A stretch of DNA of 64,000 bases from Janthinobacterium sp. GW456P (GTDB taxonomy: Bacteria > Pseudomonadota > Gammaproteobacteria > Burkholderiales > Burkholderiaceae_D). Both the position numbers and the translations under genes were made by a program. The stretch is from the NCBI RefSeq assembly GCF_002127655.1, contig NZ_NEHB01000010.1, positions 156,127 to 220,126 on the forward strand, read 5' to 3'. The first letter of the stretch is position 1; every line of letters starts with the position of its first letter. Under the pieces are notes generated by a model, which worked only from the letters and a program-made list of their open reading frames with translations, was not told the origin of the DNA and searched no databases. This document shows, one piece after another, positions 49,047-55,839 of the stretch.

Positions 49047-49889
49047 TCAGACGAGCAGCGCCGCACTCATCGAACGCACTTCCTCGGCCGATTCAGCCAG
49101 GATGCTTTGCAGGGTTTCATTGTCGATAATAAAATCGATGACGGAATCGGAAGGTGTAAGCATTTCCACATAGGTCGCCTGCAAGGGCGAGGGCACAGGC
49201 GATAGTTGTTTGGCCAACAACAGGGTATCGAGCAGGGAGTCAGGCGGAATGGACAGCAAGCCATCGCGCAAGCCTTCGATGGCTTCGCTCACGGCCAGCG
49301 GGATCAGCAGCTTTTTCATGACTTCGCGCGAAATGATCTCTTCGGCGGACTCCATCCAGTGATCGGCATCGTCGTCGAGCAGGCCGGGAAATTCATCGGC
49401 ACGCGACAACAGGTAAAAACCGCCCACCTCATGCACGATGCCGGCGAACAGCGCCGTGTCGGCATCGACGTGCGTCACGCGGCGGGCAAGCACATGCGCC
49501 AACGCCGCCACGTGCGCCGTGTGCTCCCACAGCTGGGTCGCCTTCTGGCGCAGGATGGGATCGATGATCTTGCTGCCGAACTGGCGCACCACCATGGCCG
49601 CCACCAGCGCATACAAATTGCGGTATCCCATGCGCATGACGGCGGCGCGCACGCTGGTCACGGGCGCCGCGTCGCCGCGGCTATAGACGGCCGAATTGGC
49701 CAGCGCGACCGTGCGCGCCGCCAGCAGGGGCTCGGCCAGTACCAGCTTGATCGCATGGTCGATATGGCAGTCCGGTTCAGCCAGGGCCAATTGTAATTGC
49801 AGTGCTGAATTAACACTCGTGGGGAACGTTAATTCCCCGCGCACCGCTTGGGAAACAATTAAACCGAAAGCCTGTAATTTGTTCATCAT
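49047..49889 (-). CDS. HDOD-domain protein
   Basis: 280 aa. The HDOD region (about 20-215) shows LPTSV-like start FPTSVNSALQLQLAL, ARTVALANSAVYSRG, VRAAVMRMGYRNLYALV and the HD-like but non-catalytic FAGIVHEVGGFYLL. HDOD proteins lack phosphodiesterase residues and act as signalling scaffolds in stress and motility control. It starts with two adjacent ATGs (49889/49886). Convergent with the dehydrogenase, divergent context on neither side. Confidence 0.85.
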   Translation of the reverse strand: MMNKLQAFGLIVSQAVRGELTFPTSVNSALQLQLALAEPDCHIDHAIKLVLAEPLLAARTVALANSAVYSRGDAAPVTSVRAAVMRMGYRNLYALVAAMVVRQFGSKIIDPILRQKATQLWEHTAHVAALAHVLARRVTHVDADTALFAGIVHEVGGFYLLSRADEFPGLLDDDADHWMESAEEIISREVMKKLLIPLAVSEAIEGLRDGLLSIPPDSLLDTLLLAKQLSPVPSPLQATYVEMLTPSDSVIDFIIDNETLQSILAESAEEVRSMSAALLV

Positions 49890-49965: not shown

Positions 49966-50598
49966 TTAAAAAACAGATGGCAAGCCATTCGACTGCCATG
50001 GCTGATCCGGTAATTCCAGCGCCTGCAAAGCCGATTCATCGCCAATCACAAACAGCTTCGGCTGCTGTAATACTTGCAGCAGAAATGGCTGCCCCTCTCG
50101 CAAGCGGCGCCGATAATCAGACAGCGTATATAGGTTGGGATTGATTTTACGCCTTAAGGTTCGCTCGGCCGGAGCCAATCGCGTCAACAGATCGCCATAA
50201 TTGGCTTCTTCGCCCACCAGCAGCAAATCGATGGCGCTGCCAGGCATGTCCTGTCCCTTCGCCGTGGCGCCCGACACAAATGCCAGGTGCAGCTGGGCAC
50301 GCAAGGGCGCCAGGGTCATGCTGAGCACGCCGACGATGCCGAAGGTTTTTTGCACCAGTCCGCTCAACTCCGGATACACGAGGCTTTCCTTGTTGGGCCA
50401 GAAGCGCCGCACATTGCCGATCCGCTCCGATATGATCAGGCCGGCCTCATGCAGCCGGCGCAGTTCGCGCTGCGCCGACGCGCTCCCCATGCCCGTCAAG
50501 CGCATGATCTCGTTCAAGTGAAAGCCTTCATTCACGCGGACAAACAGCAATCCCAGCAATTTCTGCTGGGCGGGAGTAAACAGGGCTTGGGCAATCAT
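49966..50598 (-). CDS. Winged-helix regulator with degenerate nucleotidyltransferase domain
   Basis: 210 aa from ATG 50598; an open extension upstream is Cys/Arg-rich and not protein-like. An N-terminal ArsR-like winged helix (about 5-75; NEIMRLTGMGSASAQRELRRLHEAGLI) is followed by a minimal nucleotidyltransferase fold (about 95-150). The expected GSxARGxxxxxSDxDL signature is altered to GATAKGQDMPGSAIDLLLVG: the first catalytic Asp is Ala, so catalysis is doubtful. Function unknown; possibly a nucleotide-sensing transcription factor. Confidence 0.7.
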   Translation of the reverse strand: MIAQALFTPAQQKLLGLLFVRVNEGFHLNEIMRLTGMGSASAQRELRRLHEAGLIISERIGNVRRFWPNKESLVYPELSGLVQKTFGIVGVLSMTLAPLRAQLHLAFVSGATAKGQDMPGSAIDLLLVGEEANYGDLLTRLAPAERTLRRKINPNLYTLSDYRRRLREGQPFLLQVLQQPKLFVIGDESALQALELPDQPWQSNGLPSVF

Positions 50599-51149
50599 GC
50601 GCCAAATCTTAGCATGAATGAACTGAAAACTGGCGTGGCAACAACAATAGGACGCGACGCTGCAACAACGCGTGATGCGCCGCCAGAAGCAGTCGCGCGA
50701 GCCCATGCTCAGCAAAGCGGGGAGGCCCAACGGCGCGCAGGCGGCAATCCGCCATTCTTGTGAGTGCTCACTTCAGATTTGCCGACACGCCGGCCGGAGA
50801 CTCCGCACCACCGCATCGGCCAGCCTGGCGCCAGGCGCACCGCCGATATTTAACCCATCAATTCAAGTATGCCAAGCTTGATAGTCACGCAGCGATATTG
50901 ATACGCCAAGCAAACAGGTGAATCAGATACAGAGACTTTATTCCTTATCTCAGCCATTAATAAGGGCATGGCTCAGCAGGAGCTTCAATACCTGGCCCAC
51001 GTCACTTTACGCAGACATCCAAAACTTCAAGGCGCCAGTTAAATCGCGCTTTGGCGTGCCGATAATATTGGATATAAAGCAGCACCATGATTTTTCGTAT
51101 TCCGGACTATGCGTCAACATGTATTGAATAAGCGACCGGTAATAAAAAA
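50599..51149. other. Gene-poor, partly AT-rich spacer before the rpoC tail repeats
   Basis: No convincing gene. A perfect 14-bp palindrome GCCTGGCGCCAGGC occurs near 50825. From about 50870 to 51140 the base composition drops clearly below that of the neighbours. A 69-codon plus-strand frame with GTG start (50918-51127) lies in this AT-rich part; it lacks a ribosome binding site and resembles nothing I recognise, so it is not called as a gene. It may be decayed foreign or duplicated DNA. Confidence 0.5.
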
Positions 51150-51167
51150 CGGCATCCGAAGGTGCCG
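51150..51167 (-). terminator. Terminator of the third rpoC-tail copy
   Basis: CGGCATC-cgaa-GGTGCCG (one T-G pair); five Us follow on the minus-strand RNA. Confidence 0.8.
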
Positions 51168-51345
51168 TTCTTGTCAGCTATCAGCGCAGATGACGCTTCG
51201 TCGCCGTGGTGTTGCCGGGTTTCGATAAGCGGGCAGATCTTCGGTGGCTACACCGGACAGCGTGCTTGTATCGGCCAGCAGCAGCGCTTGCCGTTCTTCC
51301 GCCTCCCTCGCTACCTGCCTCGCAGACGAGAGGAAATGGCATAAA
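51150..51345 (-). repeat. Diverged tandem copy (third) of the rpoC 3' end plus terminator
   Basis: Minus-strand reading gives [23 protein letters not shown], parallel to the genuine rpoC end [23 protein letters not shown], then the GACGAAGCG that encodes the terminal DEA, then a hairpin. It shares ACGCTGTCCGGTGTAGCC and an out-of-frame tail [13 protein letters not shown] with the neighbouring copy, so the two copies are more similar to each other than to rpoC. More decayed at its upstream end. Confidence 0.85.
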
Positions 51346-51349
51346 AAAA

Positions 51350-51367
51350 CGGCACCCGCAGATGCCG
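51350..51367 (-). terminator. Terminator of the second rpoC-tail copy
   Basis: CGGCACC-cgca-GATGCCG with one mismatch, followed by seven Us on the minus strand. Weaker stem than the rpoC-proximal one. Confidence 0.75.
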
Positions 51368-51545
51368 TTCTTGTCAGCTATCAGCGCAGATGACGCTTCG
51401 TCGCCGTGGTGTTGCTGAGTCTCGATTTTCCAGCAGATCTTCGGTGGCTACACCGGACAGCGTGGTTTTATCGGCCAGCAACAGCGCTTGACGCTCTTCC
51501 ACTTCCCACGCTTCTTTTCGGGCGCAGCGGAAGGCCGCGCAACAG
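51350..51545 (-). repeat. Diverged tandem copy (second) of the rpoC 3' end plus terminator
   Basis: Minus-strand reading gives [21 protein letters not shown], almost identical at its start to rpoC residues [23 protein letters not shown] 3-nt deletion removes KE, and a later indel shifts the frame so the end reads [13 protein letters not shown] instead of QQHHGDEA. The GACGAAGCG block and the terminator hairpin follow in the same order as behind rpoC. A 62-codon frame stays open through it, but there is no RBS. Period to the genuine end is 207 bp, to the third copy 200 bp. Confidence 0.88.
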
Positions 51546-51550
51546 GCATA

Positions 51551-51574
51551 AAAAAACGGCACCCGAAGGTGCCG
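51551..51574 (-). terminator. Intrinsic terminator of the rpoBC operon
   Basis: Perfect 7-bp stem CGGCACC-cgaa-GGTGCCG (on RNA a UUCG loop) followed by at least six Us on the minus strand, 24 nt after the rpoC stop codon. Confidence 0.93.
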
Positions 51575-51597
51575 TTCTTGTCAGCTAGCAGCGCAGA

Positions 51598-54500
51598 TTA
51601 CGCTTCGTCGCCGTGGTGTTGCTGGGTCTCGATATCTTGCAACGCTTCGGCAGCTTCGCCAGCCATCGAGGCTTTCTCGGCCAGCAGCAGCGCTTGACGC
51701 TCTTCCACTTCCCACGCTTCTTTCTCTTTGCGTGCGCGGTGGAAGGCCAGGCCCGTACCGCCAGGAATCAGGCGGCCGACGATGACGTTCTCTTTCAGGC
51801 CACGCAGACCATCGCGTTTGCCCATGATCGCCGCTTCGGTCAGCACGCGGGTGGTTTCCTGGAACGATGCGGCCGAGATGAACGAATCGGTCGACAGCGA
51901 TGCCTTGGTAATACCCAGCAAGACGTTCTCGTAGGTCGCAGGAATCTTGTTCTCCGACGTTACGCGATCGTTCTCGTCCAGCAGTTCCGAACGCTCCACC
52001 TGCTCGCCAACGATGTAGTTGGTGTCGCCGGCATTGACGATCTGCACGCGGCGCAACATCTGACGCACGATCACTTCGATGTGCTTGTCATTGATCTTCA
52101 CGCCTTGCAGACGGTACACGTCCTGAACTTCGTCAACGATGTAGCGAGCCAGCGCTTCGATACCCAGCAGGCGCAGGATGTCTTGCGGATCGGCCGGGCC
52201 GTCCACGATCATCTCGCCCTTGTTCACGACCTGGCCGTCATGCACCAGCACTTGCTTGTCCTTGGTAATCAGGAACTCGTGCTTGTTGCCGTCCATGTCC
52301 GTGATTTCCAGACGCTGCTTGCCCTTGGTTTCTTTACCGAACGCAACCGTACCCGTGACTTCCGCCAGCATACCGGCATCTTTCGGCGAGCGCGCTTCGA
52401 ACAGTTCCGCAACGCGTGGCAGACCACCGGTAATATCGCGCGTTTTTTGCGATTCGGTCGGGATACGTGCCAGCACTTCACCCACCGATACCTGTTGACC
52501 GTCCTTGACCATGATCAGCGCGCCGACCTGGAAGCCGATCGCCACCGAGTGTTCGGTGCCGGCGATCTTGACTTCTTCGTTCGCGTCGTTGATCAGCTTG
52601 ACTTGCGGACGCAACGTTTTCGTCAGCGAGCCGCGACGTTTTGCATCGATCGCCACCAGGGTGGACAGACCGGTCACTTCGTCGACCTGACGGGCCACGG
52701 TGACGCCTTCTTCGACGTTCTCGAAACGCACTTGACCGGCGTATTCGGTAATGATCGGACGGGTCAGCGGATCCCACGTTGCCAGGGCCGTACCGGCCTT
52801 GATGACCATGCCGTCCTTGACGATCAGGGTCGCGCCGTACGGTACTTTATGACGCTCACGCTCACGGCCATGGTCGTCGGTGATCAGCACTTCGCCGGAA
52901 CGGGAAATGACGATTTGCGCGCCCTTGCCGTTCGTCACGTAACGCATGGTTGCCGTGAAGCGGATGGTACCGTTCGATTTGGCTTCCACCGACGATGCCA
53001 CTGCCGCACGCGATGCCGCACCACCAATGTGGAAGGTACGCATGGTCAGCTGGGTACCAGGTTCACCAATCGACTGCGCTGCCACCACACCGACGGCTTC
53101 GCCGGCGTTGACCAGCATGCCGCGGCCCAGGTCGCGGCCATAGCACTTGGCGCACAGGCCGAAGCGCGTGTCGCAAGTCAGTGGCGTACGCACCTTGACT
53201 TCATCGATGGACAGACGCTCGATCTCTTCGACCATGTCTTCGTCCATCAGGGTGCCGGCGTCATACAGGGTTTCCTGAGTTTCAGGATTGACGACGTCAT
53301 GCACCACCACGCGGCCGAGAATACGGTCACGCAACGGTTCGATGACTTCACCGCCTTCAACCAGGGCCTTCATGACTGTACCGTTCATGGTGCCGCAATC
53401 GTCCTCGATCACCACCAGATCCTGCGTCACGTCGACCAGACGGCGCGTCAGGTAACCGGAGTTAGCCGTTTTCAGCGCCGTATCGGCCAGACCTTTACGA
53501 GCGCCGTGGGTCGAAATGAAGTACTGCAACACGTTCAGGCCTTCGCGGAAGTTCGCGGTAATCGGCGTTTCGATAATCGAACCATCCGGTTTGGCCATCA
53601 GACCACGCATACCGGCCAACTGGCGAATCTGGGCTGCGGAACCGCGCGCGCCGGAGTCGGCCATCATGTAAATGGCGTTGAACGATTCTTGCGTCGACTG
53701 GGTGCCGTCGCGGCGGATCACGTCTTCGACTTTGAGCTGGTCCATCATGGCCTTGCCGACTTCATCGGAGGTCTTGCCCCAGATATCGACGACCTTGTTG
53801 TAACGCTCGCCGGCGGTCACGAGACCCGAGGCGTATTGCTGTTCGATCTGCTTGACTTCCGATTCGGCCGTCGCGATCAGGGTGACTTTTTGAGGCGGTA
53901 CCAGCATGTCGTCGACGCAGATCGAGATACCGGCGCGTGTCGCCAGGCGGAAACCCGATTGCATCAGTTTGTCTGCGAACACCACGGTGGCGCGCAGGCC
54001 GCACTTGCGGAACGACGTGTTGATCAGCTTGGAAATTTCTTTCTTTTTCAGCGCGCGGTTCAGGACGGAGAACGGCAGGCCTTTTGGCAGAATTTCCGAC
54101 AGGATGGCACGGCCGATCGTCGTTTCGTAACGCGTGACCGTTTTCTCGAATTCGCCCGTTTCGGCGTTTTTCGGGTACTCGGTAATACGCACGGTGACGC
54201 GGGTCGTCAGTTCGACTTCCTTGTTGTCGTAGGCGCGGATCACTTCCGACACGTCAGGGAACATCATCCCTTCGTTCTTCGCATTGATCGCTTCGCGGGT
54301 CGCGTAGTACAGACCCAGCACGATATCCTGCGACGGCACGATCGACGGTTCGCCGTTCGATGGGAACAGGATGTTGTTCGATGCCAGCATCAGGGTGCGT
54401 GCTTCCATCTGCGCTTCGATCGACAGAGGAACGTGGACCGCCATTTGGTCACCGTCAAAGTCGGCGTTGAATGCGGCGCAGACGAGCGGGTGCAGCTGGA

Positions 54501-55839
54501 TGGCCTTGCCTTCAATCAGCACTGGCTCGAACGCCTGGATACCCAGACGGTGCAAGGTCGGTGCGCGGTTCAGCATGATCGGATGTTCGCGGATCACGTC
54601 TTCCAGGATGTCCCACACGACCGGCTCTTGAATCTCGACCAGCTTTTTCGCGGCCTTGATCGTGGTCGCCAGACCCATCAGTTCCAGTTTATTGAAAATG
54701 AATGGCTTGAACAGTTCCAGCGCCATCAGTTTCGGCAGGCCGCACTGATGCAGTTTCAATTGCGGGCCCACGACGATGACCGAACGACCGGAGTAATCGA
54801 CGCGTTTGCCCAGCAAGTTTTGACGGAAACGGCCGCCCTTGCCCTTGATCATCTCTGCCAGCGACTTCAGCGGACGCTTGTTGGCGCCGGTCATCGCTTT
54901 GCCGCGACGGCCGTTGTCCAGCAGCGAGTCGACCGCTTCTTGCAGCATGCGCTTTTCGTTGCGCGTGATGATCTCTGGAGCGCGCAGCTCCATCAGGCGT
55001 TTCAGACGGTTGTTACGGTTGATGACGCGGCGATACAGATCGTTCAGATCCGAGGTCGCGAAACGGCCACCGTCCAGCGGTACCAGCGGACGCAGTTCCG
55101 GCGGCAGCACTGGCAGCACTTCCATGATCATCCAGTCAGGCTTGATGCCCGAACGCTGGAACGCCTCTAAAACTTTAAGACGTTTGGCGTATTTCTTGAT
55201 CTTGGCTTCGGATTTCGATTCCTTCAGTTCCACGCGCAGGGTTTCGGCATCGCGGTGGATGTCGATCGAGCGCAGCAGTTCACGGATACCTTCGGCGCCC
55301 ATGAAGGCGGTGAAGTCGTCGCCGTACTCTTCGTACTTGGCGGCGTAGTCGTCTTCCGACATGATCTGGCATTTTTTCAGCGGGGTCATGCCTGGATCGG
55401 TCACCACGTATGCTTCAAAGTACAGCACGCGTTCGATGTCCCGCAACGTCATGTCCAGGACCATGCCCAGACGCGACGGCAGCGACTTCAGGAACCAGAT
55501 GTGCGCGGTCGGCGAGGCCAGCTCGATGTGGCCCATGCGCTCGCGGCGCACTTTGGCCAGGGTGACTTCGACGCCGCACTTTTCGCAGATCACGCCGCGG
55601 TGCTTCAGGCGCTTGTACTTGCCGCACAGGCATTCGTAATCCTTGATCGGGCCAAAGATCTTGGCGCAGAACAGGCCATCGCGCTCAGGCTTGAAGGTAC
55701 GGTAGTTGATGGTTTCCGGCTTTTTGACTTCGCCGTAGGACCACGAACGGATTTTCTCAGGCGAAGCGAGACCGATCTTGATTGCATCGAAGGTCTCGTT
55801 GGTCTGTACTTGCTTGAATAGATCGAGCAGTGCTTTCAT
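51598..55839 (-). CDS. rpoC: DNA-directed RNA polymerase subunit beta'
   Basis: 1413 aa, full length for a betaproteobacterial beta'. N-terminal zinc ribbon ([20 protein letters not shown], residues about 70-88), catalytic NADFDGDQM near residue 460 carrying the three Mg-binding aspartates, and a second zinc site ([16 protein letters not shown]). Start ATG 55839 with GGAG 8 nt upstream. The protein ends [15 protein letters not shown]. It is last gene of the L11-L10-rpoBC block. Its 3' end is the source of the tandem repeats downstream. Confidence 0.99.

Follow-up and report, generated by a model that had tools for sequence, protein, structure and literature searches.

In Rhs loci a constant gene is followed by a series of displaced 3′ regions, and tandem intrinsic terminators occur behind highly transcribed operons. 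For the orphan immunity-gene arrays of the Vibrio cholerae T6SS, homology-facilitated illegitimate recombination has been suggested (Kirchberger et al. 2017, PMC5361080), and that paper also names Rhs C-terminal displacement, in which orphaned 3′ regions form strings. In Streptococcus pneumoniae, transformation gives rise to small duplications without flanking repeats, as described in PMC3784515.

The locus analysed here is a tandem array of rpoC 3′ ends in Janthinobacterium. It resembles Rhs in that displaced 3′ regions stand in strings behind a constant gene, but rpoC encodes no variable toxin tip and the repeats hold only its tail and terminator. Like tandem intrinsic terminators, it places several hairpins with T-tracts in series; unlike them, each unit includes ~150 nt of coding tail, and no significant extra constraint was found. 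With the V. cholerae arrays (PMC5361080) it shares an intact proximal gene, older 3′ parts displaced in the same orientation and sometimes in series, and the lack of a known integrase. The anchor there is a T6SS region with effector variants under selection, whereas here it is the essential gene rpoC, and no gene lies between the repeats in Janthinobacterium, unlike the V. cholerae arrays. The S. pneumoniae case (PMC3784515) is likewise a partial duplication around an essential gene by imprecise recombination, but that duplication was ~3.3 kb and laboratory-made, whereas the rpoC array is ~200 bp and old. No relevant paper on rpoC 3′-end arrays or rpoC-linked insertion was found among the matches listed for the open-licence literature. 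The novelty is the rpoC end as a recurrent target more than the array itself; repeated displacement of a gene end is unexpected at an essential, nearly invariant gene.

Results

The 64,000-nucleotide stretch of Janthinobacterium sp. GW456P that was analysed (the window) encodes an intact, 1,413-aa rpoC on the minus strand (51598..55839; ORF list and Pfam RNA_pol_Rpb1 domains 1-5), followed on the same strand by its own terminator, a hairpin with a UUCG loop and a T-tract (51550..51579; fold -21.2 kcal/mol). The last ~150 nt of rpoC plus this terminator are the source of the repeat. The original prediction had proposed that this segment is triplicated in tandem, in one orientation, at periods of 207 and 200 bp, and that proposal was borne out by three methods: a repeat search of the window recovered three units in register with spacings of 200 and 207, Tandem Repeats Finder returned one array (51144-51718; period 200, 2.8 copies, 84% matches, score 772), and blastn with the rpoC tail and terminator as query matched at 84% over +62..+260 past the stop codon (51338-51536) and at 83% over +286..+454 (51144-51312). 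Coding tail, stop region and hairpin are all similar between units, so the similarity is not limited to the hairpins.

Also as predicted, the two downstream copies are diverged and changed in frame. Copy 2 (51338..51536, minus strand) is frameshifted, as its alignment and translations show, and its terminator hairpin (51343..51372, minus strand; -19.5 kcal/mol) has a G-U wobble in the stem. Copy 3 (51144..51312, minus strand), also frameshifted, is more decayed, with 36/132 differences from rpoC in the tail and a hairpin (51144..51172, minus strand; -15.2 kcal/mol) with an imperfect stem and an interrupted T-tract. Both copies have TCA where rpoC has its stop codon TAA, and they have in common a middle block that is absent from the window's rpoC. 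The private substitutions that the original prediction had noted in the two copies are thus supported, and they recur in copies from nine other genomes of the genus. Each of the three units has a hairpin and T-tract, and all three fold. A simple terminator scan flagged none of the three (0/3), a miss probably due to the stem extending into the T-tract. Rfam detected no RNA family other than tRNA in 40000-64000, and no integrase was found in nine ORFs scanned from the window. The DNA beyond the array, which had been described as convergent, begins with two genes co-directional with rpoC: an HTH-type gene next 3′ of rpoC (49966..50730, minus strand), whose Pfam HTH hits are weak and fall short of the curated cut-offs, and an HDOD gene (49047..49889, minus strand; ORF list and Pfam). 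An ADH gene is convergent to rpoC but lies farther away than either.

Comparison with related genomes, which the original prediction had called for, covered 40 Janthinobacterium genomes including the window's own, of which 37 were readable at the locus; G028 and G037 gave no match and G022 no anchor. At least one extra copy was present in 12/37 (G000, G001, G007, G010, G012, G015, G017, G018, G019, G024, G032 and G033; that of G024 partial) and short relics in three (G005, G008 and G035), giving an array or relic in 15/37 genomes and no extra copy in 22/37. Full arrays have up to four units counting rpoC. On an rpoB-rpoC tree, arrays have a patchy distribution in the crown clade and are present too in the clade of G015 and G033, where copies are similar to their own rpoC over most of the unit. 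The HTH gene forms the right-hand border of a variable interval and was matched in 36/37 genomes, downstream of rpoC by 125 bp to 6.1 kb. No displaced rpoC end was found behind genes in any Janthinobacterium genome in the 6-11 kb examined.

Several array-free genomes of the genus have FAD monooxygenase-like and TetR-like genes, named by eye, filling the rpoC-HTH interval, and such genes lie just after rpoC at loci L034, L044, L046, L059 and L065. At L040, close to the last copy of the array, the tail and the distal terminator are separated by an AT-rich insert of roughly 150-200 bp (about 1525-1685, by eye), which may have short target repeats; similar inserts occur in L031, L054 and L038. The insert of L040 is perhaps a small mobile element.

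Similarity along the units is a mosaic. The divergent middle block is common to the crown-clade copies and was found in none of the 37 rpoC genes of the genus. Across this block, copies differ from their own rpoC by 0.308 and from other genomes' copies by 0.144, and thus the block split from rpoC before those species did. The 3′ part, from the last codons to the T-tract, reverses this order, its nearest relative being the rpoC of its own genome (0.025 against 0.062 for other genomes' copies). Such a mosaic is typical of concerted evolution: conversion or unequal exchange keeps the 3′ part close to the rpoC of its own genome. The unit alignment omits the rpoC rows of G002, G003, G011, G021 and G031, the block comparison three incomplete copies, and the crown totals G015 and G033. 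The original prediction had placed an amplification or conversion step after the split from rpoC; homogenisation with rpoC is seen at the 3′ end of the units and not in the private block.

As in the concerted evolution of a tandem array, copies from one genome are more alike (mean difference 0.050, 15 pairs) than copies from different genomes (0.183, 175 pairs), the copies of G024, G015 and G033 being left out. The exception is the window's own pair, which differs by 0.186 and looks old. About 48 nt past the last unit of G018 match the sequence that follows the one terminator of G038, a result expected from gain or loss of whole units beside a fixed right border; the border of G032 matches those of G029 and G020 less well. 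A foreign origin of the private block was considered and rejected: with a 48-residue array-type sequence as query, no RpoC was closer than Janthinobacterium RpoC (83%) among the best 80 of 172 loci. Within the collection searched, it resembles a Janthinobacterium copy that has diverged, not one brought in from elsewhere.

Displaced rpoC 3′ ends occur in other genera of the family as well. A conserved 79-residue RpoC stretch was found in 351/392 family genomes, and 12 of the 14 genomes with at least two matches were searched again. Nine of 313 non-Janthinobacterium genomes with a match have, downstream of rpoC and co-oriented with it, a second, 5′-truncated piece of its 3′ end. Among the other three re-searched genomes, the second match of G108 and G187 is on another contig, and two full-length rpoC frames lie 225 kb apart on one contig of G321 (G321:C1:4569658 and 4794243). 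G238, outside the 12, has one rpoC split over two frames. Counted from the end of the tblastn match, which coincides with the stop or lies at most a few residues from it, the main displaced blocks begin at varying points from -675 to -236, and in 8/9 genomes a piece extends to +50..+80, just past the terminator; the G190 piece ends at -98 and the first of two G328 pieces at +10. Displaced blocks longer than 60 nt are 89-99% identical to their own rpoC and start 0.2-6.4 kb after it. Among all loci compared, most displaced ends are closest to their own rpoC. Exceptions are the ends of G334 and G384, part of which matches another species better, and the second G328 piece, for which such a match is better by a slight margin. 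Windowed identities of own and displaced ends gave no clear switch marking which end is the newcomer. Reading 79 named loci 1-3 kb downstream identified four Massilia with a second rpoC end or terminator (L167, which is G260, L184, L196 and L204); in Massilia sp. MS-15 (L196) the second end is at only +157..+271.

Other genes lie between rpoC and the displaced end in 7/9 genomes. G328 has two gene blocks in series, each closed by a truncated rpoC end: an AriA/AriB-like (PARIS-like) pair before the first and an Hp1-like gene before the second (L214:1500-7800). G373 encodes a GmrSD_N gene and a RiboL-PSP-HEPN gene ahead of its truncated end (L216:1466-3197), and G190 encodes VgrG and downstream genes with little or no Pfam match (L085:4443-10203). 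The interval holds an AAA_15/DUF3696 ATPase in G252, a TraB-like gene in G129, a CsgG gene in G384 and, in G260, a gene with no hit in Pfam. The pieces of G334 and G385 start at +255 and +165, respectively, with no separate 100-aa gene between.

As a control, the polA 3′ end gave a second match in 3/381 genomes. Adjacent displaced ends were found for polA in 1/341 and for rpoC in 9/313 genomes outside the genus (Fisher p=0.0085); rpoC is thus enriched for end displacement but not unique, on a comparison with one control gene in which decayed pieces are easier to detect with the rpoC query, the better conserved of the two. G351 carries part of a second polA 3′ end on the same strand, ~3.7 kb past the gene (G351:C5:318016-322153), showing that end displacement is not limited to rpoC.

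Discussion

We consider the array probably a non-coding relic of an rpoC-end duplication that recombined, was partly overwritten by rpoC and was likely founded by imprecise recombination. A 5′-truncated rpoC 3′ end, reaching just past the terminator, would have been duplicated behind rpoC in the crown-clade ancestor, and the array would then have grown, shrunk or disappeared through recombination between repeats, a step suggested by the range of one to four units per genome and by the G038 border that matches the outer border of G018. The 3′ ends of the units, terminator included, were, as the similarity mosaic shows, overwritten repeatedly by the matching part of rpoC, and the middle block drifted almost free of coding constraint. 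The original prediction had offered a relic of recombination as one of two readings, and patchy copy number, mosaic similarity and a near-neutral middle block support it. The founding event was most likely an imprecise recombination of the class seen at rpoC in other genera, by homology-facilitated illegitimate recombination or single-crossover insertion, although a plain small tandem duplication would leave the same picture in the window. An intact proximal gene with one or more 5′-truncated 3′ ends distal to it in the same orientation is found in the window as in the nine genomes of other genera, and by analogy the Janthinobacterium array may be the cargo-free form of their recurrent rpoC-end event: non-homologous DNA separates rpoC from the displaced end in 7/9 of those genomes and in no array-bearing Janthinobacterium genome, the window's included. 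These arrays offer a clean natural case in which one part of a repeat is continually overwritten by an essential parent gene and the adjoining part is spared.

A wider proposal, which we regard as tentative, is that the Oxalobacteraceae rpoC 3′ end is an integrase-free docking point where cargo is left before a truncated end, the Janthinobacterium arrays being cargo-free stages. Incoming DNA with an rpoC end would recombine, leaving a truncated rpoC end and terminator behind the cargo; the cargo would often be anti-phage or T6SS genes and could stack in series, and through the repeats cassettes could be lost and regained by ordinary homologous recombination. If the rpoC end does anchor incoming cassettes, it would be a testable integrase-free entry route for defence and competition genes, and the truncated rpoC end with its terminator would be a marker for finding such cassettes.

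The other reading in the original prediction, a selected tandem-terminator array insulating the HTH and HDOD genes from read-through of the rpoBC operon, draws on the folding of all three window hairpins, on the co-directional genes downstream and on the 18 crown copies, in which only 8/485 hairpin sites differ from the genome's own rpoC against 454/2318 tail sites. The flank adjoining the hairpin is nearly as conserved (13/431; Fisher p=0.19, on few changes), as homogenisation predicts and by itself explains; selection on the hairpin is compatible with this but not required. With the hairpin of copy 3 decayed and the extra copy missing from most genomes of the genus, we find the insulating array unsupported and rather unlikely. 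The almost intact hairpins nevertheless count against the relic reading, conversion and selection being only partly separable, and on sequence grounds the extra terminators may still stop some transcripts, although the data do not require selection for stopping. That the copies make a product, either a 3′UTR-type small RNA or a small protein mimicking the beta-prime C-terminal tail, is highly improbable. Four copies in G001, G007 and G010 have an ATG-started open frame of about 54 codons with an RpoC-like tail, directly behind the previous T-tract, and may encode a small protein there; by our reading of the translations, an open RpoC frame to the stop is kept in 13/23 copies (in G017 the second half only), perhaps more than expected of a long-dead pseudogene, a point against the relic reading. 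However, 10/23 copies, including the window's two, are frameshifted, cut short or without a stop, and all copies of G012 and G032 are frameshifted. Variable columns of the middle block fall 7/3/6 by codon position, without third-position bias, and its divergence of 0.140 compares with 0.183 at fourfold sites of the HDOD gene (36 pairs, 9 genomes), close to a synonymous rate of change. Tests of frame, codon position and divergence thus leave a coding function unsupported, and the array has neither an Rfam match nor, inside it, a detected sigma-70-like site.

Two further explanations are less likely than the relic reading. The repeats could be footprints of an integrase-borne element that attaches at the rpoC 3′ end and carries a replacement 3′ end, as suggested by the unrelated genes flanked by rpoC 3′ ends in seven genomes of other genera and by the variable length of the rpoC-HTH interval across the genus; we hold this very unlikely, as the starts of the repeats vary, unlike a fixed core site, and no integrase or recombinase was found among 22 ORFs from 7/9 loci (12/22 without a Pfam match; G384 scanned in part). 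An assembly artefact, against which the original prediction had cautioned, might be suspected in a 78-contig draft with N-bridged tandem copies elsewhere, but the rpoC copies are diverged with no N between them, and similar arrays lie on contigs of >6 Mb in seven genomes (G001, G010, G012, G017, G018, G019 and G033), making its probability practically negligible. In 459,801 bases of the same genome, the window included, there are six other arrays of period at least 60, none of them both genuine and intergenic like that behind rpoC. Five of the six each consist of two near-exact copies joined by a single N and are probable scaffold-gap artefacts; the remaining one sits inside an open frame. The N-separated copies are at L233:978-1276, L235:16215-16489, L236:18253-18550, L239:7883-8001 and L239:9546-9733.
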